DNA from: Novakomyces olei
Lineage: Eukaryota > Ascomycota > Novakomycetes > Novakomycetales > Novakomycetaceae
Length of the DNA stretch: 64,000 nt
Assembly (NCBI GenBank): GCA_016906335.1
Contig: JADEYG010000007.1
Coordinates: 1,752,001-1,816,000 of the forward strand
Direction: 5' to 3'
The notes under the pieces were generated by a model. The model was given only the letters and a program-made list of their open reading frames with translations, searched no databases and was not told the origin of the DNA. The stretch's first letter is position 1; each line of letters starts with the position of its first letter. Below, in pieces: positions 6,201 to 61,322 of the stretch. The position numbers and the translations under genes are program-made.

Positions 6201-8388
6201 CTGTGCTATTCGCGCTGGCCGTGGCTGTGCCAGTTAAAGGCAGATTTGAATGCGCAGAATTGCTTGTAGAATCAGAAGACCCCGACAGTTTTTGGGTTAT
6301 CCCCGGTCTATTTGACGATGATGACGACGAATTATTGTCTCTTTCGTAATAAGTTGTTGCTGGGGCAAAAGTTTCGTGGTGCGAGAGAATTGACCGCAGT
6401 TCCGGGAGTCGTTCGAAAAAGGACTGAAGCTGGATTAACGTCAGTCCGGAAATTGAGAAAAATATTTCGCAAAAATCGCGTATTGTATGCTCAGACTCGG
6501 CCAGTAGGTAGCGTAACACGTTACGCGTACAGCGCATATAAGTCATAAAAGGCTGGCTATCTGAGCTCTCAAACTTGTGTGAAATACAGCACACCCGTGT
6601 CTGTAAATCCGACTTTACCCTGCGCAGAAGCGTAGATTTTCCCAGCCCTTCATCTCCTTGCACTAGTAAAACATCACACGTATCATAAGCCGACTGAGGT
6701 CGAGAGTGGCAGGCCGCTCCTTTTCCGGAAAACGAACTTGCTGGACCAGAGACAGTGGCGCTTGAAGCCTTGCTAGAAGTATCATCGTCATCCTGCACGT
6801 CTCCTTCGCCGGTAGACTCGTTTGTTACGTCTTTCGCTCCTCCATTGCTGGATTTTGAACCCGCATCCTGTGTCGCACTAGACCCAGCGTTCAGGTGATT
6901 CAAGGGCAGAGGGATTATAGAGTGTGAGGAGCTCTTACGGTTGTTACATGCCCTAATTATATAATTCACAATCATGCCAATCTCATTATCCCGGCCAACG
7001 AGTATATTTGGCATTGAGAAATTGGAGATCTCGTCAACTAGCCCGAGAGCAAGAGGCTTTTGTAGTGCAGCGTACCCGCCCGAGGAGACACGTGTCCTCA
7101 ACTCGAGCAGATCATTCATAACCCCGAGGAAGCTCTGGTACCTTTTGTTCGGTGATTTTTCCGTCATGAACCAGAGAACTCGAGACAGGACTTCCGGTAA
7201 GTCCTGTCGTAATTTACAAACATCCGGAATCGGTTTAGAAATGGCATTCTGGTATATTTCCAGTGTATCTCCCTCCCAAGGTGCTTTGCCTGTAAGAATA
7301 ACGTAAAAATAAATACCGGTAGAGTAGATATCGGTCCTGTGATCCGGCTGGTACTGAGTGCGGCCCGTCTGCTCCGGACTGAAATATATGCCCATCGATC
7401 CGTGGGACCAGAGATCTGATAGCTTTGAATGCTGAGGCAGCAAAGAAAAGGGCCCAGAGCTATTATTCCCAATATTGAAAAACCGTAATCTGTCCTCCGA
7501 GTCAAAATCAAAGCATCCTGGACGAATAGAGCTATGTAGCTTGTGATGTTGATGAACAAAAGACATGCATTCACAAAAGCGGATAGCGTAATCCAGGAAA
7601 TCTGTCAATTTCAATGGCTCAAAGACTTTGCTCTTGTCCTCGACGTACGTCATTGCGCGTGCCAACGAGTCCGGTGTAGGCGTTCCGTCCACAATATCAT
7701 AGCAATGTGTTTCCGGCAGACCAGTGTTGCTATTGCTTGCAAGTTGAGAATAGTCAGCATGATTCTGGACTTGGTTCTCAATCTCAGTTTCGTATGCATG
7801 ATCAATCATGTTGTCGGCATCACTATCAACTCCATTTATTTGTGGAGAAATAGGTGAGCGACTGTCAAGCAGTGACTGTGACTCGAGGTACTTTAGAGCG
7901 ATACTGGAGACGGCCTTTTGGAAAACGAAAACGGGTTCAGGTATCCTGTACTTTTCCTGAAAACTTCCCTTGTAAAGCGTAACGGCCAGGTTATGTGAAA
8001 ATTCGTAAATGGCAAAAGGCGCCACGAGCAGGTCACGGCCATTTTTTTGCTTACACAAATAATCGAGGGTATACGCTTCCTCCTGAAGAGACGTCAAATC
8101 AAAGGAAACCCGGGCAATAATGCTCTCCTCGGGTTCCGACGAGTCTTTCACAGAAGAAGACGATGACGACGACGGGATAACAAAGGGCGACAGCCGTCGC
8201 CCGGGCCGACTGTTATCTATCGGACGGCCAAAAAAATAAACGACTCGTAGCTGATCAAAAAGCAGTTCTCGCAAACATACAGCTCCAAACTCATAGCCAT
8301 TGATCGATCGGACGGCCTGCAGAGCCTCCAAAACCCCAGCATTGTGGCGGTTGCTTGCAGATAGAACGTCGGGCGGCGGCGGCGGCAT
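204..8388 (-). CDS. Group X hybrid histidine kinase (Chk1 / Mak2-Mak3 type)
   Basis: Four exons: 8388-4697, 4619-766, 609-329 and 287-204. The introns are 77, 156 and 41 bp with GTGAGA/GTACGT/GTAAGG donors, and the joined frame encodes about 2,636 residues. Domain order: a protein-kinase-like region (about 250-430), an AAA-type ATPase with Walker A GDEGLGKST (about 578), a long helical linker, GAF (about 1780-1940), PAS (about 1970-2080), HisKA with phospho-accepting His about 2103 in MSHELRTP, HATPase_c with DTGIGI and GTGLGLSI, and a C-terminal receiver whose acceptor Asp is about 2562 in LVDQHMP, followed by the conserved TKP lysine. This order defines fungal group X kinases, which act in peroxide and osmotic stress phosphorelays. 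The receiver sits on two small exons and would be lost without splicing. The kinase-like region has LHSSIRPG where active kinases carry HRD and shows no DFG, so it is probably a pseudokinase. Identification is firm; the exact stress input is unknown. Confidence 0.95.
4620..4696 (-). repeat. AT-rich microsatellite inside histidine kinase intron 1
   Basis: The 77-bp intron starts GTGAGA and ends ACATCAG, and contains an (AT)n run followed by a (TTTA)n run. It is an ordinary short intron with a simple-sequence core, and its removal joins the pseudokinase/AAA half to the GAF/kinase half in frame. Confidence 0.8.
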
Positions 8389-17447: not shown

Positions 17448-19742
17448 TCAATCGAACGAAGCTAATAAGGGTTTCAGCACCTGCGCCTGTTGCCGAGCAA
17501 ACTCCCATGAATACAAATCTTGCAGCCGCTCAATAGCGCAGGCAATAGCTGCCCGAGGCTTTAAAATTCCATCTTTAAGAGCATCTGGCCCCGCTGATCG
17601 GATTGTGCCACAGTACCGCTGTGCTTCCTGAGTCTTGTCGGTCATAATTGCCTCCTGCTGGCTAGGTGCAGCAGGAAAGAACCGCCAATAGCACCATAAA
17701 ACAAGGACAGACGCGTAAATGCACCAACCTAAATGCAGCGGGTTATCCGGCTGAACTTCATCAAATATTTGGTGTAACAAGCTCGCACTGTGCCAAACAG
17801 CATTTCGAGCGTGCGCAACATGAACCCAGTTTTGTATCGCATTTGCACTGGCAACATAATCATCTCGGCCAACGCGTTGGCCTTGCACAAGAGCAGATCC
17901 GGCAAAGATTTGCACGTCTTTTAAATTGACATTGAGAGCAATTTGAGCAAAATGAAAAGTAGCAACACTCGCACAAACACGATCGAGCATTAGATCAGGA
18001 GCAATTCGCTCTACAAAATACGTCTGCCATTGCATATAAGCTTTTTGCATTGTAGTATTTTGATCCAAGTGCAGGAGTTGCTTATGACTGCTACTGTTAC
18101 TGCCCAATTGGTGCACGTGACCTCCCACGGAAACGAGTCCATAAAGGACAAGAAGGGCAGTGAGACGCGTAATTCGAAACGCGGGTAGGACGAGATTGTC
18201 TTGGTGCAGGAACGCGTTGAGTGTAGCAATGAATTCTACCGGTGGAACATCTCCTTGGAACTGTCCTGCCCAATCAGGGAACTCGGCATCCCACAACGCG
18301 TCAGTACATGGAGTATGCAACCGCAGGTCCAACACGTCCAAGCAAGGGGCTGTACCGTAAATGGCAGACTGCAACATGTCAACTCCGAAAGCGTGAAAGG
18401 CCAATCGCTTACGTAATTCGTGCTCAACCCACGCTCGATACTCACCAACACTGGTAGTGATAACAACGTGGATTGGAGGCAAAGCCAAGCAATGACATTG
18501 TCTCAACAAACCCACAAAAAGACCGTGGAAAACGTGGATCATTTCGTTGTTGCCAGCACTGCGAAAGAGGCCATAAATGTCCAGAAAAAAAAGGGTTTGT
18601 ACAATCCACAGAGGCGAGACAGTATTGAAATTTGTTTGAGCAAGAGCAGTAGATCGTAATCGGTCTACAATTGCCCCTGCTTGCTCACTGATCCATTGCT
18701 CATTCGCATAACTAGCACCGATAAGGAGAATTGCATAAAGTAGGGGCGTGGGAGTCGACGCCACGTGAAACGTCGGTTTGTGCAAAATAGGGTAAACACG
18801 GTGAAATCGTGACCAAAAATTGCCCCACCATTCATATAAATGATCGGCAGTTACTTGGGCGTCGAACAGAGTAAGGCGCTCACGTAATTGCCATGCAATA
18901 CTGTCCACGTGAACTTCGGAAGGTAATTGTGGGTCTTCTATTGTTGCAGCTGCCGCGGCGGTAGCTGCCCAGTCCGGTGCAAGATTGAAAAAGGCCGCGT
19001 CGTCCGCAACATTATAATTCCCAGAATTATAACTATTGTTAATATTATTATTATTTTCTAGAGAACTATTATTCTCGTTGCTCCCTGCTTCTGAATGCAC
19101 AATTGACGGCCGATGGCCCTGGATTTGCGTGACCACACCCGGCGATGAAGCCGATTGTGGAATAGTCGATAAAAGTGTGGATAAAGGCTTCATCTCCGTC
19201 GCCTTTTCCATAGAAGAGGATGATTCACGTGATAAATTCAAGTCAGTTTCCTGCTCTTGACCTGAATGAACATTGTAAATATCGGCAGCAGCATCCCTTC
19301 TTGCTTGTCGAATAGAAAGTGGAGTATTAGATTCGTCTAAAGAAGCAGTAGACGAGGTACTGCCAGGGCCAACCAGAATAAATCCCGGTTCAGGTTCTGA
19401 AGATGCGTTTACGAACGAAGCATTTGGCGATGCATTGCTGTTGGTTAATCTTTGTACACTTTGTGAACTTTGTGGGCTCTGTGGAGTCTGGAAACCTGAA
19501 CTCTGTGAAGTTTGTTGGAATATTGCAAATGCCTCTGGGTGCTGACGACGTTCGTGTTTGCGCATTAAATCAGAACGGACAAAGGCACGACCACAAAGGC
19601 GACATACATGATCTCGATGACCGCTGTGATTAAGTTCGTGTCTTCGTAAATGCTCACATCTAAGAAACCTCTTTGTGCAATTAGGATGACGGCATCCGTA
19701 GCGGCCATCCGGTCCCAGTACAAAGTCTTTTGATCCAGGCAT
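17448..19742 (-). CDS. C2H2 zinc-finger transcription factor with fungal activator domain
   Basis: A single exon encodes 764 residues. Two C2H2 fingers occupy residues about 15-70 (CRHPNCTKRFLRCEHLRRH, then CRLCGRAFVRSDLMRKHERRQH). They are followed by a long Ser/Gln/Asn-rich linker and, from about 270, a helical region of the fungal-specific transcription factor type (DHLYEWWGNFWSRFHRVYPILHKPTF, then LLYAILLIGASYANEQ). The architecture is that of nuclear DNA-binding activators. Finger 1 carries R-x-x-H-x-x-R recognition residues, like the second regulator at 58.5 kb, but finger 2 ends in Lys rather than Arg, so its site may differ. The target pathway is unknown. The gene is probably intronless, since the first ATG directly precedes the fingers. 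Confidence 0.88.
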   Translation of the reverse strand: MPGSKDFVLGPDGRYGCRHPNCTKRFLRCEHLRRHELNHSGHRDHVCRLCGRAFVRSDLMRKHERRQHPEAFAIFQQTSQSSGFQTPQSPQSSQSVQRLTNSNASPNASFVNASSEPEPGFILVGPGSTSSTASLDESNTPLSIRQARRDAAADIYNVHSGQEQETDLNLSRESSSSMEKATEMKPLSTLLSTIPQSASSPGVVTQIQGHRPSIVHSEAGSNENNSSLENNNNINNSYNSGNYNVADDAAFFNLAPDWAATAAAAATIEDPQLPSEVHVDSIAWQLRERLTLFDAQVTADHLYEWWGNFWSRFHRVYPILHKPTFHVASTPTPLLYAILLIGASYANEQWISEQAGAIVDRLRSTALAQTNFNTVSPLWIVQTLFFLDIYGLFRSAGNNEMIHVFHGLFVGLLRQCHCLALPPIHVVITTSVGEYRAWVEHELRKRLAFHAFGVDMLQSAIYGTAPCLDVLDLRLHTPCTDALWDAEFPDWAGQFQGDVPPVEFIATLNAFLHQDNLVLPAFRITRLTALLVLYGLVSVGGHVHQLGSNSSSHKQLLHLDQNTTMQKAYMQWQTYFVERIAPDLMLDRVCASVATFHFAQIALNVNLKDVQIFAGSALVQGQRVGRDDYVASANAIQNWVHVAHARNAVWHSASLLHQIFDEVQPDNPLHLGWCIYASVLVLWCYWRFFPAAPSQQEAIMTDKTQEAQRYCGTIRSAGPDALKDGILKPRAAIACAIERLQDLYSWEFARQQAQVLKPLLASFD

Positions 19743-40282: not shown

Positions 40283-43200
40283 GTATGATGTTTAGGCGGA
40301 GGCAAACGCACATAGTCGAGGAATATATAGTCGACTTTCGACTTGAATATTTTGCGTGTAATAAAATGCCTCCGCTGGATGTAAGCTTGAATAGGCTCAT
40401 GTCTTTGGCCTTCATGCGGAGGCAAACGCACATAGTCGAGGAATATATAGTCGACTTTCGACTTGAATATTTTGCGTGTAATAAAATGCCTCCGCTGGAT
40501 GTAAGCTTGAATAGGCTCATGTCTTTGGCCTTCATGCGGAGGCAAACGCACATAGTCGAGGAATATATAGTCGACTTTCGACTTGAATATTTTGCGTGTA
40601 ATAAAATGCCTCCGCTGGATGTAAGCTTGAATAGGCTCATGTCTTTGGCCTTCATGCGGAGACAAACGCTCATAGTCGAGGACTGTAAAGTTAGCAAAAA
40701 CATCATAAAATAACGCATAGAGACTTACATCGGGCGCTTAGGCGGAGGCAAACGCTCATAGTCGAGGAATATATATTCGACTTTCGACTTGAATATTTTG
40801 CGTGTAATAAAATGCCTCCGCTGGATGTAAGATTGAATAGGCTCATGTCTTTGGCCTTCATGCGGAGACAAACGCTCATAGTCGAGGAATATATAGTCGA
40901 CTTTCGACTTGAATATTTTGCGTGTAATAAAATGCCTCCGCTGGATGTAAGCTTGATTAGGCTCTTGTCTTTGGCCTTCATGCGGAGGCAAACGCACATA
41001 GTCGAGGAATATATAGTCGACTTTCGACTTGAATATTTTGCGTGTAATAAAATGCCTCCGCTGGATGTAAGCTTGAATAGGCTCATGTCTTTGGCCTTCA
41101 TGCGGAGGCAAACGCTCATAGTCGAGGAATATATAGTCGACTTTCGACTTGAATATTTTGCGTGTAATAAAATGCCTCCGCTGGATGTAAGCTTGAATAG
41201 GCTCATGTCTTTGGCCTTCATGCGGAGACAAACGCTCATAGTCGAGGAATGTAAAGTTAGCAAAAACATCATAAAATAACGCATAGAGACTTACATCGGG
41301 CGCTTAGGCGGAGGCAAACGCTCATAGTCGAGGAATATATATTCGACTTTCGACTTGAATATTTTGCGTGTAATAAAATGCCTCCGCTGGATGTAAGCTT
41401 GAATAGGCTCATGTCTTTGGCCTTCATGCGGAGGCAAACGCTCATAGTCGAGGAATATATAGTCGACTTTCGACTTGAATATTTTGCGTGTAATAAAATG
41501 CCTCCGCTGGATGTAAGCTTGATTAGGCTCTTGTCTTTGGCCTTCATGCGGAGGCAAACGCACATAGTCGAGGAATATATAGTCGACTTTCGACTTGAAT
41601 ATTTTGCGTGTAATAAAATGCCTCCGCGGATGTAAGCTTGAATAGGCTCATGTCTTTGGCCTTCATGCGGAGGCAAACGCTCATAGTCGAGGAATATATA
41701 GTCGACTTTCGACTTGAATATTTTGCGTGTAATAAAATGCCTCCGCTGGATGTAAGCTTGAATAGGCTCATGTCTTTGGCCTTCATGCGGAGACAAACGC
41801 TCATAGTCGAGGACTGTAAAGTTAGCAAAAACATCATAAAATAACGCATAGAGACTTACATCGGGCGCTTAGGCGGAGGCAAACGCTCATAGTCGAGGAA
41901 TATATATTCGACTTTCGACTTGAATATTTTGCGTGTAATAAAATGCCTCCGCTGGATGTAAGATTGAATAGGCTCATGTCTTTGGCCTTCATGCGGAGAC
42001 AAACGCTCATAGTCGAGGAATATATAGTCGACTTTCGACTTGAATATTTTGCGTGTAATAAAATGCCTCCGCTGGATGTAAGCTTGATTAGGCTCTTGTC
42101 TTTGGCCTTCATGCGGAGGCAAACGCACATAGTCGAGGAATATATAGTCGACTTTCGACTTGAATATTTTGCGTGTAATAAAATGCCTCCGCTGGATGTA
42201 AGCTTGAATAGGCTCATGTCTTTGGCCTTCATGCGGAGGCAAACGCTCATAGTCGAGGAATATATAGTCGACTTTCGACTTGAATATTTTGCGTGTAATA
42301 AAATGCCTCCGCTGGATGTAAGCTTGAATAGGCTCATGTCTTTGGCCTTCATGCGGAGGCAAACGCTCATAGTCGAGGAATATATAGTCGACTTTCGACT
42401 TGAATATTTTGCGTGTAATAAAATGCCTCCGCTGGATGTAAGCTTGATTAGGCTCTTGTCTTTGGCCTTCATGCGGAGGCAAACGCACATAGTCGAGGAA
42501 TATATAGTCGACTTTCGACTTGAATATTTTGCGTGTAATAAAATGCCTCCGCTGGATGTAAGCTTGAATAGGCTCATGTCTTTGGCCTTCATGCGGAGGC
42601 AAACGCTCATAGTCGAGGAATATATAGTCGACTTTCGACTTGAATATTTTGCGTGTAATAAAATGCCTCCGCTGGATGTAAGCTTGAATAGGCTCATGTC
42701 TTTGGCCTTCATGCGGAGGCAAACGCTCATAGTCGAGGAATATATAGTCGACTTTCGACTTGAATATTTTGCGTGTAATAAAATGCCTCCGCTGGATGTA
42801 AGCTTGAATAGGCTCATGTCTTTGGCCTTCATGCGGAGGCAAACGCTCATAGTCGAGGAATATATAGTCGACTTTCGACTTGAATATTTTGCGTGTAATA
42901 AAATGCCTCCGCTGGATGTAAGCTTGATTAGGCTCTTGTCTTTGGCCTTCATGCGGAGGCAAACGCACATAGTCGAGGAATATATAGTCGACTTTCGACT
43001 TGAATATTTTGCGTGTAATAAAATGCCTCCGCTGGATGTAAGCTTGAATAGGCTCATGTCTTTGGCCTTCATGCGGAGGCAAACGCTCATAGTCGAGGAA
43101 TATATAGTCGACTTTCGACTTGAATATTTTGCGTGTAATAAAATGCCTCCGCTGGATGTAAGCTTGATTAGGCTCTTGTCTTTGGCCTTCATGCGGAGGC

Positions 43201-43339
43201 AAACGCTCATAGTCGAGGAATATATAGTCGACTTTCGACTTGAATATTTTGCGTGTAATAAAATGCCTCCGCTGGATGTAAGCTTGATTAGGCTCTTGTC
43301 TTTGGCCTTCATGCGGAGGCAAACGCTCATAGTCGAGGA
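40283..43339 (-). repeat. 120-bp satellite derived from the end of the coiled-coil gene, in four blocks
   Basis: Near-identical 120-bp (40-codon) units form blocks at 40283-40682 (3.3 units), 40729-41248 (4.3), 41295-41813 (4.3, with a one-base deletion) and 41860-43339 (12.3), separated by 46-bp spacers. On the minus strand one frame reads YIQRRHFITRKIFKSK, VDYIFLDYERLPP per unit, clearly related to the gene's own C-terminus YYQRLRFVTRKLIKSE, AEYMFLDLNCLPP. Each block ends in the gene's PPPKRPM sequence (PPPKHH in the last). Unit variants recur in the same order in different blocks, which indicates higher-order duplication. The unit lacks stops in three frames over both strands, so 400-500-codon open frames appear that are unlikely to be genes. 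Confidence 0.95.
41814..41859 (-). other. Intron-like 46-bp spacer between satellite blocks
   Basis: Donor GTAAGT, branch TGCTAAC and acceptor TTTACAG, identical to the spacers at 43340-43385 and 40683-40728. The copy at 41249-41294 has CAT in place of the CAG acceptor, so that one should not splice. Confidence 0.7.
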
Positions 43340-44968
43340 CTGTAAAGTTAGCAAAAACATCATAAAATAACGCATAGAGACTTACATCGGGCGCTTAGGC
43401 GGAGGCAAACAATTTAAGTCCAGGAACATGTACTCTGCCTCCGACTTGATTAGTTTGCGTGTAACAAATCGCAGGCGCTGGTAATACACTTTTTTGGGCT
43501 TATTGTCTTTGGCCTTTTGCAAATCAAATTTGTACGACGCCAGGCCTCCTCGCCTTTTTTGCGCACCGTCTTTATCGCTATATCCGGCGCCGGGGCCACG
43601 CTCCAAAGTATCGGCCCACTGAATCCGTCCCGGCCGTTTCTGGGGACGGTATGAGTACTGGTCAAACTCATCGCCGGGGCCAAAGTCAAAGGTAAAACCG
43701 CAGTTTTCTTTCAAGCTCAGCGCGTATAGTCGGAGCTCTTTTGAGCGAGCGCAAAGTTGTGACCACGTGTTGAGTCGTTGTCCTTCAATTACCGCGGCAT
43801 AACGGAGGCGGTAAACGTTCACCATTTTTGAGTTTTGCACGGTATTGTCTCGTGTTATTTGAAACAGCGCGAAGACGTTCCCGTTCAAGGCTGATATGTT
43901 AGAATTGTAAAGCTACAAAAACAAAAAGAAAATAACAAACACACGAAAATTCAAAAAAAACTCACCAATCTGCTCGGCTTCCTTGACCTGCTCGTAAAAC
44001 TCGGGCCCAGAAGACAGCTCGGTATGGAAAAAAGGAAACGGAATCGGCCTGTCAAAATAGACTGGCTCCCGGTCCGTATGTAGAGAGTAATATTGAATGA
44101 TCAGCTTGTTGGTAGCAGGAATAGACGCTGCACACGGCCTTTGAAGCATCTGGCCGTTAAAAATCTGAAACGCTTGCTCGCGTGAAGCATTCAATTTTGC
44201 CTCCTCGGCGATTTTCTGAGCTCGCTTCGCCTCCTCATCCTCGAGAGCCTGCCTCTGAGCTTGCTTTTGGGCGTGCATTTCAGCATCAGCCTTGCGAGCT
44301 AAAAATCGGGTCAAAGCGGCGTTTCTTTGCTCCCAGAGAGAGGCCATCCTGGCTTTTGCAGCCTCAGCCTCCCTAGCCTTTGCCTCCTCAATCCTGGCCG
44401 CCTTTGCCGCCTCAATCCTGGTCGCCTCAACCCTGGCCGCCTCAATCCTGGCCGCCTTTGCCTCCTCAATCCTGGCCGCCTTTGCCGCCTCAATCTTGGC
44501 CGCCTCAATCCTGGCCGCCTCAATCCTGGCCGCCTCAATCCTGGCCGCCTTTGCCGCCTCAATCCTGGCCGCCTTTGCCGCCTCAATCCTGGCCGCCTCA
44601 ATCCTGGCCGCCTCAATCCTGACCGCCTCAGTCTCCCTGGCCTTTGCGACACCCATGGCTTTTGCCACCTCTACGGCCTTTGCAATTTCGATCCTTGCCT
44701 TTGCAGCCTTAGCCTCCTTGGCCCTTGCAACCTCAGCCTCCCTGGCCCTTGCAGCCTCGGCGTTCAATAGGCTAAGTTCAGCCTGAAACTCGGCAATCGA
44801 CTTCTGCTCGGCTATACGATCGAATTCCTGGACTGCCTTGCACACCCGCAAGGCAGCCGTAGCGAGAGACTTGGCAACGTCGATGATATACTTACCTTTC
44901 TGCTGAATTAAAATTAGTATAAAAAACAAGGGAACAAAAGCCATCAATAGGCAGCCGTAGCAGAACAT
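43340..44968 (-). CDS. Unrecognised membrane-anchored coiled-coil protein with amplified C-terminal motif
   Basis: Exon 1 44968-43966 and exon 2 from 43890, joined by an intron with donor GTGAGT and acceptor ATATCAG. Reading ends at a TAA at 43382 (about 503 residues); if the 46-bp intron at 43340-43385 is removed, it ends four codons later instead. The N-terminus has a hydrophobic anchor (LLMAFVPLFFILILI, about 7-21). Residues about 70-230 are an Ala/Glu/Arg coiled coil with many RIEAA and RIEAAKAA repeats. A folded-looking region follows (SSGPEFYEQVKEAEQIALNG, then FTFDFGPGDEFDQYSYRP), ending in the 40-residue motif that was amplified downstream. A TATA box (TATAAAA) lies about 105 bp upstream of the ATG. 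I recognise no family. Two separate repeat expansions and a decayed paralogue indicate fast evolution. Confidence 0.72.
44386..44635 (-). repeat. In-frame 15-bp/24-bp minisatellite encoding RIEAA / RIEAAKAA
   Basis: Units of 15 bp (CTCAATCCTGGCCGC on the plus strand), some extended by CTTTGCCGC to 24 bp, are repeated about 14 times inside exon 1. All lengths are multiples of three, so the coiled coil changes length without frame loss. Confidence 0.92.
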
Positions 44969-51710: not shown

Positions 51711-53284
51711 TCAACTCGACCCACTGTTGTCTGCACATGAGAATGCAGAAGATATTTGCCCATCAGCGTAAGCCTGATTGATTTGAACAATGACGCCATA
51801 CGTTCCTCCCACCGTCATAAACAAGCCCAAAAGCACTAGCAGTACATGAAAGGCATAGAATAATTTTCGCCAGATATTGCCCTTATAATAATCAGCATGG
51901 CTATAAAGCCATAGCCAACCGGGCAAGCTGATAGCCAAAGGAGCAAAACACAAGGATCCGACCAGGGCCAGCACGTAGTTGAAAATGGGAATTGCAGAGG
52001 CCAATACAAAAGAAATAGCGGACATTCCGACGGTACAGCTCAACCAAGTACCCCAGTGCACAACAGTATTTGCCTGTAAATGCCTTGAATTTCTTAAAAT
52101 TCGGACAAAAATGTATTTCGCAGCCACATGAACGTACAAGCATCCACTAACAATTAATCCAGGAAGTGCAATTCCATACGCAACACGTTTAACCGTAGTT
52201 CCGGCGCTGCCCAGTGAAGGTGAAGCAATCCACTGTCCGCACCAAGCATAGATAACCAGGGAAAATGTAAGGTAAGAAGCAGTTACCAAGCTCATGCTAA
52301 GATAAACTGCTTTAGGGTAATCCTTGGGTTTCCTCATTTCCGAAATCACGGGAAGGAAAGCCGAAGTGGCAGCACTAGAAACGAAAATGGTTGCTGCTGC
52401 CGTAATTCCCGTAGCGAAATCGGGATTACCGATCGCCCGATATCCGAGTTCAAAATCGCCGGTTTGTGGAGCGGCTGCAGGCCGATCACGAACTGTGACT
52501 CCGATGCTGAAAAGTTAGAACCCAAAGAATGGACAAGGAAACATAAAAGCTAAATCAAATCAAGTTCAATTTAATTCAATTTTATTTAATTAAATGCGTT
52601 AAATAGAAATACAGATATCGTTTGGCCTTCATAATTCAACACTTACACAATGATAAAAACAGCGACGTAAACGCTGCCGAACCCAACCCAAGTGAGCCAG
52701 CCGATTTGCGAAAACTTCCGTACACTCGCACAAAGAGCAATAATAATGGTGGCAATGAATGAGAACCACACGGTGCAAATAGAATGCAAAGATAAGGCAT
52801 TGAAAGCAGTAGAAACACCAATAATTCCAGAGGCGGCAACGATAACGTAGCTGACAGTGAAGAGAAATCCGACCAATTCTTTCAACAATGGGCCACCAAT
52901 TACTTGAGCCATATCGGCTATAGAATGACAAGCAGGGTAGCGATTTCGAAAATTGCCTTGAACAATAGCGCAATACGTGTTAAGCAGTGTCCAACCAATG
53001 ACATTTACTGCACCAGGAAATGCACCCAACTCATACATTAATGAAGGTATAGAGAGTACGCCAGTAGCAAAAATAACTAAAATTTGTAAGAAACTTATCG
53101 TGCATTGGATCATGTACATACTCTTCAAAAAAATAACTGCGGCTTTTATCCAGCTCACAGTACAAAAGTCTACTTGACCTTCGCCCTTCTTAAAAACTTC
53201 GAACCTGTCTTCGACCTCGGCACTTTGAACATCAGGCACTTCTTGCTCGCCATTCAAGCTGTAAAGCTCTTTGCTTTCCGCCAT
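51711..53284 (-). CDS. AAAP-family amino-acid permease (Mtr-like)
   Basis: Two exons (53284-52647 and 52506-51711; 140-bp intron, donor GTAAGT, acceptor TTTTCAG) encode about 477 residues. The start was set at the first ATG (MAESKELYSL); the frame is open upstream but without an ATG. The cytosolic N-terminus has VEDRFEVFKKGEGQVDFCTV ahead of the first helix, as in neutral amino-acid permeases such as Neurospora Mtr, followed by about eleven hydrophobic segments including FLPVISEMRKPKDYPKAVYL in the cytosolic loop. It would import amino acids or related amides at the plasma membrane. It is the first gene of the putative amide-catabolism cluster, and five TTGGRG motifs lie just upstream. Confidence 0.9.
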
Positions 53285-53709
53285 GGTTGGTGAAGCTTCG
53301 ATAGGCACGCGACTAGTATATATACCATTCGCGTAGCTGATACGATAAGAAACTTCTCCAAGAGCCTCCGTGAGCTGCTGTCAAATACAATTACCGATGC
53401 AAAAGCATGCCTGGGAAGGTATCAGAATTGGAGAGTTGGGGTAGCTGGCATTGGGGTATGGCTCGGGGTAAGAGCTGAGTGGTGTTGGAGTATCTATATA
53501 ATAGTGTATCCAGAAGAAATAAAGTAATTGGTGCATACATGATAAGCATATTTTAATTATTACGTTTTGACTGCATACCATGCGTTGGGGTAAGGCTTAT
53601 CATGATAACGAACAACATTTACAGTAAATTGCTTTACACTTATAATTAATGGAATTATTTATTTATTTATTTATTTATTTATCTATTTTTTTTAAATGCC
53701 GAACTTAAT
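53285..53709. promoter_or_regulatory. Permease promoter with five TTGGRG motifs
   Basis: TTGGRG or its complement occurs at 53356-53361 (CTCCAA), 53427-53432, 53435-53440, 53450-53455 and 53484-53489. All lie 70-205 bp upstream of the permease ATG, with a TATATAG-like element just beyond. A TTTA run at 53653-53680 lies near the deacetylase 3' end. Confidence 0.7.
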
Positions 53710-54799
53710 TTACTCTAGCATTGCACCAGGTGCTGCAGGCATAAGTGCGCCTGAGGGAACCGGCGTTTTCTGCTTAAATTCGGTGCACACTTGCTCCATG
53801 GTTACAAACTCCACACCCTCATGCTTTTTGAAATGCTCGATGAGCCTGATTGTTAATTAGCCATTTCAGATAATTTAACAGTTTATTTCTCCTACCTTTC
53901 ATGCATGAGTAAAACATGCGGCCTGCCAGAAACATCCGGGTGAATGGTAATGGGGAATATAAACTCGTCATACTCGCGGTAAAAATAGTCAAAGTGATCG
54001 CGCCAGATATCCTCCACGTCTCGTGCATTGACAAATCCATGGCTGTTAGGCGCTTTTTTGATGAACATCATTGGAGGCAAATCATCAATGTACCAATTTG
54101 ATGGTATTTCAACAAGGCCAGTCTGTGGTCCGTGCTCTAAAGGTTTCATCCATGTTTCTGCTTTGCTTTTGTAATCAATTTTGGTCCAACTATCACCAGT
54201 ACGTAAATAGTAAGCTTGGCAGTCCTCGTGGCTCATACTATGGTCGTACTCAATGCCGTAATCCAACAACAATTGAGCTCCTTCACGGCTTGTTTCCCAC
54301 CTGGCATTAGAAAATAGAATGAAATAAAATTACATCATTTCGCAACAATAAAAAATAGAGCCTGTTCCTACCAAGGTGCCACACTGCCCCGGGGCGGTTT
54401 GCCCACAAAGTCTGTTAACATACGATAAGTCTTGTCCAGGACATCCCTCTGCTGTTCTAGACTCATATCAGTGGGATTTTCGTGTGAGTAACCGTGGAGG
54501 CCGATTTCGTGTCCAGCATCGCGAACTGCCGCCATTTCACGAGGGAATGTTTCCAGCGAATGGCCTGGAATGAACCACGTTGCCTTGATATTGTACTTTT
54601 CAAATAGTTTCAATAGACGCTTTGTCCCGACAGTGCCCGCCCAAACACCTGTAGTACAATAATTAGTCGCGTAAACAAGCAAAATGAGCTTACCCCGGCT
54701 TATATCGTTTGTTGAATCCTCGCCGCCGTATGAGCCAAGCCAGCCCGCCACTGCATCCACATCAACTCCATAGGTAACAAGAACTCGCTTGGCCGGCAT
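53710..54799 (-). CDS. HpPgdA-type polysaccharide deacetylase family amide/imide hydrolase
   Basis: Four exons (54799-54694, 54648-54372, 54300-53896, 53845-53710; introns of 45, 71 and 50 bp) encode 307 residues. The joined protein follows the Helicobacter PgdA/cyclic-imide-hydrolase subgroup of NodB enzymes almost throughout: [20 protein letters not shown] with the metal Asp, [23 protein letters not shown], the metal-binding [59 protein letters not shown]. There is no signal peptide, so it acts inside the cell and is unlikely to work on cell wall. Members are known as peptidoglycan deacetylase or cyclic imide hydrolase. The neighbouring amidase favours a small imide or amide substrate (inference). 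Confidence 0.92.
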
Positions 54800-55215
54800 C
54801 ACTACTCGATTTTAAATCGAATTGAAAGTTTAAAACTTAATGACTCCGTGAGTTTATAAGAACGCTGACTCTAAAGTTTATTGCTTGCCGGTAGTTTCTT
54901 CGCGCTCTCCAAAAATGTCATAAAATAGCTCACGCAGAGATAAGCTGGTGGGTGAGTGGAGGAGCATTGGGGTAAAGATATAACTAATATTGGAGAACAG
55001 ATTTTTGGGGTACTTGGAGTAAAATTTGAGTGATAAGCGCACACGACTTGGGGCTTGTCGGACACACCCGATTAAGTTGCTGTCCAATCTCGCAACTTGC
55101 GCAACGAACATTTGATGTAAATCAGAATAAATAAATTATCAGCCATCGCTTTGTTCTCCTTTGAACTTTGAAAAGTTAAAGGAATAAAGGTGAATCGCTT
55201 TGAAGGCCGGTCAGT
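54800..55215. promoter_or_regulatory. Divergent promoter of hydrolase and amidase with six TTGGRG motifs
   Basis: Sites at 54907-54912 (CTCCAA), 54967-54972, 54990-54995, 55005-55010, 55014-55019 and 55048-55053 in a 416-bp region serving two divergent genes. This is far above the roughly 0.4 expected by chance. Confidence 0.72.
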
Positions 55216-56946
55216 ATGTCGGTCCTGTTCACAAGCATCTCGGAGTAAGCACGAAACTCGAAAAATTCAATTGTCTAACTTGAACGAACAGAAACAATCC
55301 AATTAAATCTGGCGATGCGAAGAAAGTCATAGAGCCACTCGGTCTCAATATCGATGATTCGGAATCAAATGATTTTGACACTCTATTAGCCGCTGTGCAT
55401 GATTGTGCAGATGCGGTTGCTTCACTCCCAAATTACGAGCCTGTACCAGACTTGAAGAAATACCCACGGGAGAATGTTAGACGACCTAAACAAGAAGAGC
55501 AGGTGTTTGGTCAAGCCTGGGCTCATCGGTTCTTAATTCGTGGAAATCCAGATGGGAAATTGTCTGGCAAAACGGTCAGCTTAAAAGATGTGATTTGCGT
55601 TGCTGGTGTTCCTCAATTTCTGGGCAGTGACTGCACTCCGCCCTATACTCCCAAACTTGATGCTACAGTGGTGACGCGACTATTGGAAGCTGGAGCTGAT
55701 ATTCACGGCACTTCTACTTGCGAGCATTTTTGTCATTCTACATCATCGTTTACTAGCTCCCAAGGCACAGTAGAAAACCCTCATGCAATTGGCTATTCAG
55801 CCGGTGGAAGTACCTCAGGAGGGGCTGCTTTGGTGGCTGCTGGAGTTGTGGATATTACCATTGGAGGAGATCAGGGTGGAAGTGTTCGACTACCCGCAGC
55901 AATGTGTGGATGTAAGTGATTTGTTGTTTTTACATATTTTTAAATCATGTTTGCCAATAAAAAATTTATAATGCATATGCACATTCTAACGTTCAGGCAT
56001 CGGCCTGAAACCAACTTATGGGCGTGTTCCTTTTACTGGAATCACTAGCGGCGACGCTGTTAGCGATCACACAGGCCCCTTGGCTCGATCTACGCTTGAA
56101 ATTGCCGACTGCTTGGACGTAATTAGTGGTTATGATGGAATAGACGATAGATCTGTCGCTAGTCCGGCACCTGGGTCAACGCATTTTGCAGACATGCTTA
56201 GAAAAGCTGGAACCAGACTCGATGGAATCAAAATCGGAGTGTTAGAGGAGGGTTTCACACACGATGCTGTAATGCCGACAGTAAGGCATGCAGTATTAAC
56301 AGCAGTAGAGAAGTATCGGGAACTGGGTGCAATTGTTGAGCACGTGTCCCTGCCAGATCATCTGCATGGTCCTGCGATTTGGACGATTCAAAACCGAATT
56401 GCTGGAGCACAAACACTGCTGGGCCGTAACACTGGAAGAAGAGGTCTTTATATGACAGAAGCTACACAGGCACGGCTTCCCTGGACCGATGAGGCTTTTC
56501 AAAAAGCCTTTCCTTCCACCAAGAACGTTATTATTAATGGGCTTTATCTCGAATCTCAATTTCCGGGGCTCTATGGTAAAGCTATCAATATTGGTCGGCA
56601 AGCCACGGATAAGTATGAGGCCCTTTTTGAAAAATATGATGTTTTGGTAATGCCCACAACTCCTGCTGTTGCACCGAGACACGGCAAACGAGGATTGCCG
56701 ATAGAATCACTAAAGCCTGGTATGGGACTGACCATAAACACGGCCGTTTTTGATATCACTGGTCATCCGGCCATATCAATTCCGGTAGGATTGGCACCCG
56801 CTAAAGAGGACGAGCAAGTATTGCTTCCCGTGGGTATGCAAATAGTAGGTGGTTTGTGGCAAGAAGACAAAATATTACGTGCTGGGCATGCGTGGGAGTC
56901 TTCTTTTGACTGGAAAAAGATGCATTTTCGTTCAAACACCAATTAA
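55216..56946 (+). CDS. Amidase signature family enzyme
   Basis: Three exons (55216-55244, 55292-55911, 55997-56946; introns of 47 and 85 bp) encode 532 residues. The amidase signature triad is complete: the Lys in GKTVSLKDVICVAG (about 115-130), the cis-Ser region in GYSAGGSTSGG, and the nucleophile Ser in GGDQGGSVRLPA. The second splice gives AAMCGCIGLKPTYGRVP, the universal continuation. The 29-nt first exon is supported by frame and splice sites (MSVLFTSISENNPIKSGDAK). No targeting signal is seen. The enzyme hydrolyses a carboxamide to acid and ammonia; the substrate cannot be read from the sequence. It is divergent from the imide hydrolase-like gene, an arrangement that would suit hydrolysis of the half-amide made by the latter. 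Confidence 0.93.
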
Positions 56947-57224
56947 TTCTCGTAATTAATCAAATTCATTTTGTTGTGTGTCATTTGTTAAATTATTTGC
57001 TCCGAAGAGTATCTCTTAATACATTATATTGACCCTGACTCTGGCCTCAACTCTGATCATCTATAATCAAGTAGCAAGCCTGTCGACTGGATGAGCAGAC
57101 TGCCCTAACGCTTCTACATTCATCGTCATATGATAATATTAATCAATCTTGACTGCGTTCTTTAAAGGGGTTTATGCATACTATTTATGCTGAAATAGAA
57201 ATTAAAATTATTCTAGCATTATGA

Positions 57225-58117
57225 TCATACGGTGATATAGCCCCCATCTACAACCATGGCATGGCCTTGGACAAAAGATGCTTGTGTCGAGCAAAGAAAA
57301 AGTACAGCGTCAGCCACTTCGGCCGGTTTTCCCATCCTTTTCATAGGAGCAATTTCAACCGCGGGTGTTATAGCCTCACGTATCTCTTTATTTGCCATTA
57401 CCAAGGGTGTTTCGATTACTCCAGGGCAAACACAATTCACACGGATCCCATCCTTGGAATAGTCAATTGCATCAGCCCTAGTAAGGCCAATTATAGCCGA
57501 CTTTGATGCGCAATAAGCAGCTGATAATTAGAAGATTAACCAGTAACTTCGAAGCAGACTTACGAGCATTTGGCCGGCTAACAATTCCCAACTGACTAGC
57601 AATATTCACAACAGCTCCACGTTGTGGGGACCTTGCAGGATCATGGCTAGCAAGTGGTTCTTGTGCCACCATTTGTAGTAGTTCGGCTCGGGACGATAAC
57701 CAACATCCTCTATAATTAATACTATTTACACGATCAAACTCTTCCAAGCTCGTCTCTCCCGATCGAAGAGGAACGCCGAGAACTCCGGCACAGTTTACAG
57801 CGTAATCCACACGTCCAAATGTCTCTGTTACTTTTTCGATAAAGGTTGCAGCAAATGTATCTTCCGCAACATTACCAGCATGCAGTAAAAGTTTTATATT
57901 AGGGTGTTTTTCGGAAATGTCTTTTTCTGTCTGCTCAAGAGTAGCCTTGTTAATATCGGTAATCGCAATTCTTTCACATCCTGCAGCAGCAAACGCTTTA
58001 GCAACTGCAGCGCCAATGCCTAGAAATCCGTGAGTTATTCATTCGTGATTTAAAAAGTTTACCACTTCCTCCAGCCCCCGTGACTACGGCAACACCTGGA
58101 AACAAGGATGCGGCCAT
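57225..58117 (-). CDS. Short-chain dehydrogenase/reductase
   Basis: Three exons (58117-58063, 58019-57564, 57520-57225; introns of 43 bp each) encode 268 residues, the usual length of a classical SDR. Cofactor motif TGAGGSGIG straddles the first splice; VNCAGVLG is the NAG motif; the catalytic Ser is in VVNIASQLGI; YxxxK is in AYCASKSAIIGLTRAD, created by the second splice. IRVNCVCPGVIETPLV and VVDGGYITV follow. An Asp after the second strand (ITDINKA) suggests NAD(H) preference. It oxidises or reduces an alcohol/ketone of unknown identity. It is divergent from the cluster's C2H2 regulator and shares its TTGGRG-rich promoter. Confidence 0.92.
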
Positions 58118-58492
58118 TGCTATCGGTCTTCTGTCAGCGGTCTTTCAAATCTTTTATGTACCCCAACAACCCCAATCTTGCGTGGGCCAGCTTTCATATA
58201 GATTACTTTTATGATATGCAATGTGCGCTTTATCTATTAGCGTATTATCCCCGACACTAGTATCCGGCTCGGTTTTTCAAGTTATGCTAAGAGCAGAAAG
58301 GTCTTAGCATGAAAAATATCTTCTAATCGTCAACAGCTTGCTCCCTTCTATGACAAGAATCCTATCACGCCGTAGTCTCCCGAACATTGAAAAGTATTAT
58401 AAATCTGATAAATGCTTATCAGGCCCAGCTTTGGAGTAATTGGGGTTATATTTGGCAATCATACAATCTTCTCCAAGACCCCGAGATAATTG
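58118..58492. promoter_or_regulatory. Divergent SDR/regulator promoter with five TTGGRG motifs
   Basis: Sites at 58161-58166 and 58170-58175 (CCCCAA), 58431-58436, 58440-58445, and 58471-58476 (CTCCAA). Two groups lie close to each of the two starts, so the regulator may control its own gene. Confidence 0.72.
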
Positions 58493-61322
58493 ATGCCGCC
58501 TTCAAGATCGTCTCAAAGTAACGGCGCAAAGCAGCGTGTATGCGTTCATTGTGGGCAAGCTTTCCGCCGAACTGAACATCTGAATCGTCATGTCCGCATA
58601 CGTAAAGTCTCTTTGTTATTTGTCCTTTGGTTTTTGGTTGTTGTGTTATATGGTTGCTAAGCCAGTAGATACGAAAGAGAAACCGTTTGTGTGTTTTTGT
58701 GAGGCGGCATTCAGTAGGCGGGACCTACTGAAAAGGCACACTAGAATTGTTCATGAAGGCGACTCGTTGCTTAGCAAATCTGGTGCATCTGTCGATCCAT
58801 CAAATGCTCAATCTGATGCTGCTACACGTCGATGGACTAGTAGTGAGACTTACCAGTCTGCTTCTGCCCAACCTGAAATACAGGACCCAGCAATGCTAGA
58901 AGCTGCCCAACTACTTTTGCCCGGGGAATATTCACGTAACAAATATTGTTCACTGTATTTTATTTTATTTAATATTTCAGTCTTTCCTCGACAAACATAG
59001 TATTTGATAAAGCATTTCTATAACACGCTAATCAATAGATCTCAACCATTTCCAAGAGTTTACAACATTTATAGACTCTATAGGTCTCCCAGCAGAATGG
59101 TTGCCCAGCGACGGAGATACTATAGCCGACGTTGGTGTTTTGGATGATAGAACGGTCGTGGATACAACTGAGCAGCCCGCAAGGCCAAGGCCTGAATCGC
59201 GAGCCGATTCTCCTTTTCGATCATGGCTTCCGTCTGTTCCAAGGGGCGATCAAAGCCTTGGGAGCATGTCTGAATCAGGTAAGCACAGAAAATAACCTGG
59301 AAATTAAATAAACTGTGTGTAAAAACCTGAAATTAAGTTTTAGAACCACCACAGGCAGCCAAGACATCGAAATTCAATGTCTCGGAAGACCAAAGGTTCC
59401 GTCTTGCAACTGCCCTTGAAGAATTTCACGATGTCATCCCAGGATTCGTCTTACCTTCTCGTCATACTCTTACACGGTATATTACGTCCTACTTCGAAGG
59501 ATTCCACCCGCACATTCCCTTCATACACGTTCCAACTTTTCGAGTAGAAAAATGCTCTCCTGAATTGATATTAGCGATCGCTACAATTGGTGCTCAATAC
59601 CGATTTGAGCATCGTAACTCTGAGCGATTATTTCATGTTTCAAGAGCGGTTTTATACGAACGCATGTCTCGAGAGTACCGCTCCAGAGCCGTGTACTCGG
59701 CTGATCTGCCTTCATATTCGGATAGCCAGTCAAATGCGGCCTTAAGAAAGGTGGCAATCAGTAACAATATCAGCAATAGTATCAGTGTTAATAACAATAA
59801 TGCTTCTGGTGTTGGTGATACCAATACTACCACAGCTCATAGCTCTACTGCATATTCGCAGATGGAGGTTATACGCTGCCTTCTTGTGCTAATGGGCTAT
59901 GCCACTTGGGAACGAGCTGTATTGGTACAAGAGGCTTTTCAGCTACAGGCACAGCTTATCCAGCAGCTGCGCAGCATCGGACTTGTTGAGCAGTACCCGG
60001 ACTCTTCTACCGCTCAGCCGCTTGACTGGTACGAATGGGTGGAGAAGGAATCAGAAAGACGAACCAAGTTGATTTCTTTTTGTTTTATTCATATTCACAG
60101 TGTTGCGTATAATGTATATCCTTCATTGCGAAGTAATGAACTTCATTTGCGGCTTCCCAGCTCTACAAGAGAATGGACGGCCAATAGTGCAGCGGAGTGG
60201 GAAGCCATTCAGCTTGATAGAGGACCACAGCAGCTCTTTTTCCAGGATGCGTTAGCTTTATTGCTACAAGGATCACCGCGGTCAGCGGTGCCTGTTGAGC
60301 CTATACCTGCACCGCTGGGGAATTATATACTTCTTCATGGTTTATTGCAGCGTATACATATTGTCAGCGAGCTAACATTGCCAACGGGAAGCAATTCCAT
60401 CAGTCTGCCAACTCAAGAATTCAACAAGATCGAGTAAGTTTATGCGACGATTTCTCACCTATTAAATTATCAAACTATTTGATAATTTTCACTTTGTTTT
60501 ATTTTTCTAATTACTAACCAATTAACAGGAGAGCGCTTCGTTCCTGGACAACTGTTTGGCAGCAAGCTCCAGAATCAAGCCTGGATCCGCATAATGCGAA
60601 TGGACCTATCCCGTTTACTTCGAGTGCTCTTCTCGGGCTGGCTTACGTGAGACTGTCATTAAATCTTGGCCCTTATCGTCGCCTTGAGACTCGAGAGCCT
60701 ACTGTCATTGCTGCTGCTTTAGCCAGATCTTCAAGGCCAGAAAGGAGCTATCGGCTCATTCCGGCTTTGATATACGCTGCTCATGCTCTAAGTATCCCAG
60801 TTCGTCTTGGGATTGATCATATTGCCAGAAGTCAGGCGTTTTTCTGGAGTGTACGACATTCTCTTGCAAGTTTTGAATGTGCAGTGTTACTCAGCAAATG
60901 GCTTTTCACTCTTGCCGAGGCCGGTCCTGACCAACCTATGCTAGGTAAGTGCGACGGTAGAGTCATTTAAAACAAAGCCAGAACCAAAGATAAAAACGAA
61001 CAGACAATGTTTTAAAAATGAAAACATTATTAAATAAGAAAGCAGTCAGCATACTTGTTTTCATTTCCCCCTAGTGTTGTGGAATGCTAACATTCTGGTA
61101 GAGTATGAAAGCCGTATACTTCGCTGGACACGCTGCATTGTCGAAGAAGCTTATTCGTCCATCGATTTGGAAGACGAATCTGAAGCTCCATCAAGCCTAG
61201 AGCCTGATGTACTGGGAATGGCGGTTCTTAGACTATGGACGCGTCTGTTTAAACGCAACACTCAATGGCCCTTTATAAATATTATTGGACAGAGTTTAGA
61301 GCAATACATGTCTATGCTCTGA
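58493..61322 (+). CDS. Adr1-like two-finger C2H2 transcription factor with fungal activator domain
   Basis: Six exons (58493-58601, 58666-58935, 59039-59278, 59344-60433, 60529-60944, 61075-61322) encode 790 residues. The first splice joins finger 1 (VCVHCGQAFRRTEHLNRH) to finger 2 (CFCEAAFSRRDLLKRHTRIVH). Helix positions -1, 2, 3 and 6 are R-E-H-R in finger 1 and R-D-L-R in finger 2, the same as yeast Adr1, which binds TTGGRG. After a disordered linker, SIGLPAEWLP and a fungal transcription-factor homology region follow (FVLPSRHTLTRYITSYFEGF, HPHIPFIHVPTF, LILAIATIGAQYRFEH; about 220-700). It likely regulates the flanking permease, hydrolase, amidase and SDR genes and itself. An Asn-rich insert (about 310) is a low-complexity expansion. 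Confidence 0.9.

Follow-up and report, generated by a model that had tools for sequence, protein, structure and literature searches.

The DNA analysed here is a window of 64,000 nucleotides from the fungus Novakomyces olei (assembly GCA_016906335.1, JADEYG010000007.1:1,752,001-1,816,000, forward strand), located on a 2.6 Mb contig of a genome that totals 14.34 Mb. Gene modelling and Pfam searches show that positions 51711-61322 are occupied by five genes: a permease gene, three enzyme genes (M, N and W) and the gene of a putative regulator (R) that combines C2H2 zinc fingers with a PF04082 domain (Table 1). The subject of this analysis is the cluster and the copies of the motif TTGGRG in its promoter regions. 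All predicted introns follow the GT-AG rule. For M, N and R, the modelled proteins can be matched to known fungal ones along as much as 100% of their length, and the splice models of W and the permease were checked by family match only.

Table 1. Genes, promoter regions and candidate sites of the cluster (window positions; a sign after a site gives its strand)
Feature	Position	Strand	Details
Permease, amino-acid transporter family (Aa_trans)	51711..53284	-	477 aa; 1 predicted intron; PF01490, E 3e-28
Permease promoter region	53285..53709		6 TTGGRG: 53356-, 53428+, 53436+, 53451+, 53485+, 53585+; four are TTGGRGTA
TGATAAGC, GATA-type site	53540..53547	+	second-ranked 8-mer, 4 copies; others at 53595-53602 (-), 55031-55038 (+), 58414-58421 (-)
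M, cyclic-imide-hydrolase-like (HpPgdA-like) enzyme	53710..54799	-	307 aa; 3 predicted introns; PF01522; 3qbu, E 9e-129
Divergent M/N promoter region	54800..55215		6 TTGGRG: 54907-, 54967+, 54990+, 55005+, 55014+, 55048+; three are TTGGRGTA
N, amidase	55216..56946	+	532 aa; 2 predicted introns; PF01425, E 3e-80
Convergent N/W gap	56947..57224		zero TTGGRG
W, short-chain dehydrogenase (SDR)	57225..58117	-	268 aa; 2 predicted introns; PF13561, E 1e-54
Divergent W/R promoter region	58118..58492		5 TTGGRG: 58161-, 58170-, 58431+, 58440+, 58471-; two are TTGGRGTA
R, C2H2 + PF04082 regulator	58493..61322	+	789 aa; 5 predicted introns; PF00096 and PF04082; fingers at residues 17-37 and 45-65

An earlier note on this DNA had claimed about 16 TTGGRG sites, distributed as five, six and five over the three promoter regions, where about one would be expected by chance in 1.2 kb. 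A direct count on both strands agrees for the M/N and W/R regions and yields six instead of five for the permease region, bringing the total to 17. The convergent gap, which has no promoter, contains none, exactly as had been stated. In the complete cluster 19 sites are present, and the two outside the promoter regions are intragenic (at 54071 and 55861). The background consisted of 205.7 kb of the same genome, namely the flanks of the window, three 10-kb loci taken without selection and 13 loci selected by the motif, the latter minus their middle 600 bp. There, TTGGRG occurs at 0.86 per kb overall and at 0.61 per kb outside open reading frames (ORFs) of at least 100 aa. From the latter rate 0.74 sites are expected in the three promoter regions, close to the earlier estimate, and the Poisson probabilities per region are 3e-7, 3e-7 and 4e-6. 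An equal density in the sampled background DNA is thereby refuted. In 2000 dinucleotide shuffles of the three regions the motif occurred 1.1 times on average and 7 times at most. The sole tandem array found in these regions is one of TTAT at 53655-53692.

Because TTGGRG had originally been picked from knowledge of Adr1, all 6-, 7- and 8-mers were also ranked blindly, with the promoters compared to noncoding background. TTGGGG, TTGGGGT and TTGGGGTA came out on top, each in its length class. The extension to TTGGRGTA is found in 9 of the 17 promoter sites and in 14 of 176 background sites (Fisher p 1.3e-5). Genome-wide there are at least 730 copies of TTGGRGTA, from which about 0.06 would be expected in the 1.2 kb of promoter DNA that holds nine. 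The trailing TA thus seems to belong to the recognised unit, and the plain Adr1 hexamer has been superseded as that unit by TTGGRGTA on the strength of the enrichment and the genome-wide count. The arrangement of the sites is also unusual. The genome has 20 places where a TTGGRGTA is followed within 0-30 nucleotides by TTGGRG on the same strand, and the cluster accounts for 6 of them. Three closely spaced TTGGRG on one strand are found at 83 places, with 5 in the cluster, and by eye most of the others are tandem or regular coding repeats.

The second-ranked 8-mer, TGATAAGC, is a GATA-type site with 0.03 copies expected. More generally, HGATAR occurs 15 times in the 1216 bp of promoters, compared to 3.9 per kb in the noncoding background.

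The regulator R had been described as Adr1-type, with DNA-contacting residues identical to those of yeast Adr1 in both fingers. The two fingers indeed match the solved ADR1 finger pair as a single stretch (2adr, R residues 15-68, E 1e-14). Residue by residue, the contacts are presumably identical to those of Adr1. The match is not special to Adr1, as many animal C2H2 proteins match the fingers too and a second N. olei factor, on contig C3 (see below), has the same likely contact residues by the author's reading. The best relatives of the full protein are uncharacterised Penicillium proteins with 58-68% identity, and the Aspergillus proteins (rows P0029-P0052) show 51-59%. Among these best 120 of 207 matches, many of which are named hypothetical protein, the name Adr1 does not occur. 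In the genome itself the next-best place reaches 43% over query residues 9-84, a stretch holding the fingers, and further C2H2 relatives are matched by the fingers. The term Adr1-type is therefore apt for the fingers of R only. The finger pair and the TTGGRG core are shared with Adr1 and Mxr1, the C2H2 activators of yeast and Pichia; R differs from them by its PF04082 domain and by relatives that do not go by the name of Adr1. Unlike Adr1 and Mxr1, R looks pathway-specific. That Adr1 binds TTGGRG, as the earlier note held, agrees with the excerpt of PMC3897899, which gives this consensus for Adr1 and CYCCNY for Mxr1. About 40 kb from R, the window encodes another factor that combines PF04082 with C2H2-type fingers (about 763 aa; 17448-19742, minus strand); it is weakly similar to R.

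The final three steps of nicotinate breakdown in fungi are catalysed by enzymes of the same families as W, M and N. Residues 3-291 of M can be aligned with HpPgdA (3qbu), and D15, H87 and H91, located in addition to the fold-family match, are presumably the metal ligands of M. The putative activity of M can be compared with that of the bacterial cyclic imide hydrolase, PuuE allantoinase and HpPgdA (3qbu, 3cl6); with 65.9 bits M lies far under the PuuE NCBIfam cut-off of 424.6. N contains an amidase-signature domain with motifs at 106, 179 and 201, which we take to be the Lys-Ser-Ser triad. Its next-best match in the genome shows 32% identity. In Aspergillus nidulans, according to the excerpt of PMC9304392, an imide arises when HxnW oxidises a ring hydroxyl, HxnM then opens this imide and HxnN hydrolyses the resulting amide; HpPgdA is there described as related to cyclic imidases. 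Because W, M and N share their families with HxnW, HxnM and HxnN, the order W, M, N is proposed for the cluster as well.

The claim that no described cluster has this composition could consequently be upheld only in part. The combination of an SDR, a cyclic imidase and an amidase under a C2H2/PF04082 factor is already known as hxnW/M/N/R from the excerpts of PMC8478523 and PMC9304392. No description of the present cluster as a unit apart from hxn, of its regulator or of its apparent transfer was found in the open-licence PMC literature. As far as the excerpts of PMC5746545, PMC8478523 and PMC9304392 go, further likenesses to the hxn regulon are a self-regulated factor (presumably also the case for R), GATA sites in the promoters and clustered genes with divergent pairs.

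The search of the genome with M revealed a second copy on contig C3. The 20 kb around it contain, by Pfam and ORFs, a major facilitator superfamily (MFS) transporter, a flavin adenine dinucleotide (FAD) monooxygenase, the M-like gene, a 2-oxoglutarate (2OG) dioxygenase, a PF04082 factor, a phenol-hydroxylase-like monooxygenase, an SDR and an old yellow enzyme (OYE), and a further transporter lies beyond. Neither an amidase nor an hxnS-like gene is among the listed ORFs of at least 130 aa in these 20 kb, although no genome search for hxnS was made. Judged from its gene content, the C3 set (about 21-42 kb) is an hxn-type cluster in its own right and includes an HxnR-like factor. The finger layout of this factor is HxnR-like by the author's reading and that of R is not: AnHxnR has fingers at 8-32 and 41-63 and PF04082 at 394-668 (excerpt of PMC8478523), and in R the PF04082 domain starts at 252. 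R and the C3 factor share 28% identity over 60 residues. Compared with the published layout and with the C3 factor, R does not appear to be an HxnR orthologue.

The same can be observed for M. In the M tree (47 rows, midpoint root) the C3 copy and ATEG_05673 lie opposite the window M, with 99 for this split in the Shimodaira-Hasegawa-like approximate likelihood ratio test (SH-aLRT). ATEG_05673 is assigned to nicotinate metabolism in the excerpt of PMC7842363, and M of the window thus probably falls outside the HxnM orthologues. The permease belongs to Aa_trans and not to the MFS. None of hxnS, hxnT, hxnV, hxnX and hxnY is found within the five-gene cluster, which means that the upstream steps of hxnS, X, V and T are absent from the genes modelled there. 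The identification of the cluster as the hxn nicotinate cluster was rejected on account of the relatives of R, the M tree and the separate cluster on C3.

The sites of the two clusters differ as well. TTGGRG has a density of 1.6 per kb in the C3 stretch (G+C 46-48% vs 42% in the window), and none of its 32 sites in the 20 kb is TTGGRGTA. The sole copy seen further along, TTGGGGTA-GATAAG at C3:39662, lies within the transporter ORF. The sites of HxnR have not been determined experimentally and are predicted as GHGGGG or GNGGDG, according to the excerpt of PMC8478523. Two C3 stretches that resemble divergent hxn promoters (L031 local 275/338 and 8218/8357) each hold two opposed TTGGRG, none of them TA-extended; these are possible HxnR sites.

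For the origin of the cluster, protein lists were drawn up from the best 120 of 207 matches for R, of 3057 for N and of at least 8000 for M. The R trees comprise 36 and then 30 of the 120 rows; P0052, P0054, P0092, P0097, P0105 and P0106, two of which were flagged as long branches, were dropped the second time. The N tree comprises 43 of 120 rows, and the M tree 45 of 120 rows plus the C3 copy. In the careful R tree, R stands within Penicillium beside Penicillium sp. IBT 18751x (98/95). Its exact neighbour differs in the quick tree and its position within Penicillium is the same. Approximately unbiased (AU) tests reject a Penicillium clade without R (p-AU 0.0014) as well as a Penicillium and Aspergillus clade without R (0.0074). 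Five Penicillium rows form a group with M (SH-aLRT 89), inside a supported nine-row set (97) that includes three Aspergillus rows. N falls in a poorly resolved 18-row set (87) of 11 Penicillium, 5 Aspergillus and 2 other rows, N itself included, and this set nests in a larger supported one of 26 rows (97).

The host has a different affinity. Among solved structures, RPB2 matches Schizosaccharomyces pombe best (1933 vs next 1688 bits), ahead of budding yeasts, and so does uL3 (742 vs next 676 bits), ahead of budding yeasts, Chaetomium and Neurospora. Because of these two best matches, the core genes of the host are considered Taphrinomycotina-like and nearest to fission yeast, on the coarse basis of two markers compared with the PDB. 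R is thus nested in the presumed donor clade against the affinity of its host, as expected of horizontal transfer. A donor shared by R, M and N, the proteins covered by the trees, is strongly indicated for R, with weaker local support for M and N. In Taphrinomycotina no hxn cluster is reported in the excerpt of PMC8478523, only unlinked genes in Saitoella. Because the C3 HxnM copy groups with Penicillium too (SH-aLRT 97), the tree suggests that at least two Penicillium-type clusters entered this host.

Gene order, proposed earlier as a check, is partly conserved. Going by the locus tags of the matches listed, the genes for R and N lie side by side in 13 of 14 species (six Penicillium, two Aspergillus and five Sordariomycetes). 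The tag numbers differ by 2-6 in 12 of these species and by 20 in Cosmosporella, where tags presumably run in tens. The tags were judged by eye, and numbers in the style of the Joint Genome Institute (JGI; A. wentii, A. oleicola), which may not follow position, were excluded. Four gene models even fuse an R relative to an amidase (P0070, P0078, P0081 and P0085; best 120 of 207). Among the matches listed, M and R are separated by 4 or 5 tags in Emericellopsis and Monosporascus, and in Apiospora hydei M adjoins N.

Because every promoter region facing the five genes has sites and the promoterless gap has none, a local regulon that includes its own regulator, as first proposed in the earlier note, is the best reading. 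With a probability of about 0.64, the cluster is a self-contained imide nitrogen-salvage regulon that was moved by horizontal transfer together with its regulator. R, presumably responding to an inducer, would bind the TTGGRGTA arrays of the permease promoter and of the divergent M/N and W/R promoters, thereby switching on its four partner genes and its own gene. GATA factors may add control by nitrogen limitation. The permease would import the substrate, a cyclic imide or hydroxylactam. W would oxidise the ring hydroxyl to the imide, M would open the imide to the half-amide and N would release ammonium from the half-amide. R, N and M, at the least, appear to have been acquired from a Penicillium-like fungus; W, the permease and the promoters with their binding sites were probably part of the same transfer. 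It is known that catabolic clusters pass from one fungal species to another; whether they arrive in an already wired state can seldom be tested. Here, factor and candidate sites lie together in a seemingly foreign genome, which makes binding and cross-species function directly testable. TTGGRGTA is a concrete candidate motif for a regulator that shares the HxnR architecture. If this reading is right, the fungal imidase-amidase module would have a second use, outside nicotinate breakdown.

Other explanations were weighed against this regulon. The motif was first chosen with Adr1 in mind, which might leave its density to chance or base composition; the observed count exceeds all 2000 shuffles, the blind ranking arrives at the same motif and 17 sites stand against 0.74 expected, leaving this explanation contradicted and its probability negligible. 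It is unlikely, too, that a different host C2H2 factor, for example the HxnR-like one of C3 or a general Adr1/Mxr1-like regulator, is the main reader of the TTGGRGTA arrays, with R acting elsewhere or only as a helper. The likely contact residues that are shared and the further finger relatives in the genome would allow it, but the extended motif is missing from the 20 kb of C3, and the arrays are located at R's own cluster and promoter.

With about the same small chance, the cluster might provide the last nicotinate steps, N and perhaps M and W serving the hxn-type genes of C3. W, M and N are of the right families as far as the excerpt of PMC9304392 goes, the C3 ORFs listed include no amidase and the best other amidase of the genome is a distant match to N. 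M-like and SDR genes are present in the C3 stretch itself, however, regulator and motif differ between the two clusters and the pairing of R and N by tag in other fungi marks a unit of its own. Even less probable is a vertical origin, in which the host lineage has had the cluster from its ancestors and the closeness to Penicillium is an artefact of loss elsewhere and thin sampling. The searched set contains no relatives of the host and the branches of R and N are long, but the AU tests reject R outside Penicillium or Penicillium plus Aspergillus and the core genes are nearest to fission yeast.

Several observations weigh against the transferred imide regulon itself. Recognition of the sites by R is a prediction from their enrichment, and the HxnR-like factor may recognise a similar core. 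Of the 14 TTGGRGTA-TTGGRG pairs elsewhere, 8 fall outside and 6 inside ORFs of at least 120 aa; the pair alone is therefore no proof of a target. The substrate is argued solely by analogy, and the glycine motif of W, TG(X)4GXG, departs from the TG(X)3GXG of HxnW (excerpt of PMC9304392). The end branches are long (R 0.44, N 0.37), making a long-branch effect possible, and N is not separated from an Aspergillus group (section Usti and relatives, by the author's labels). R and N are far apart by tag in Diaporthe batatas. Among the matches listed, locus tags place no M next to R or N in Penicillium, and the M found in P. hispanicum (tag 005034, with R/N at 008119/008121) falls in the HxnM clade.

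A bolder version of the regulon's history can be put forward only tentatively and is on balance doubtful: genes, factor and TTGGRGTA array would have jumped as a working unit to another subphylum, and the regulator would have begun to annex host genes, for example a transporter/amidase pair on contig C5. The survey of such targets covered the 14 outside pairs, with neighbours seen for some of them. One pair on C5 (L011 local 4990-5012) precedes an MFS transporter gene that is followed by an amidase gene; this pair is a lead and not a result.

This C5 region (about 52.2-56.4 kb; L011 local 2854-7113) carries TTGGGGTAAAATTATTTTTGGGG upstream of the MFS transporter and is a possible further target of R. 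A further catabolic cluster may lie at C5:96460-101104, where a phenol-hydroxylase-type domain occurs close to a distant relative of M (37-50% identity). The left neighbour of the five-gene cluster in the window is a MAK21-like gene. At 41834-43375 long frames overlap on both strands (513 and 475 aa) with doubtful domain matches, and this is probably low-complexity sequence. The first 2.3 kb of contigs C11 and C12 contain similar TTGGAGGA minisatellite arrays at the contig ends, which are possibly subtelomeric.

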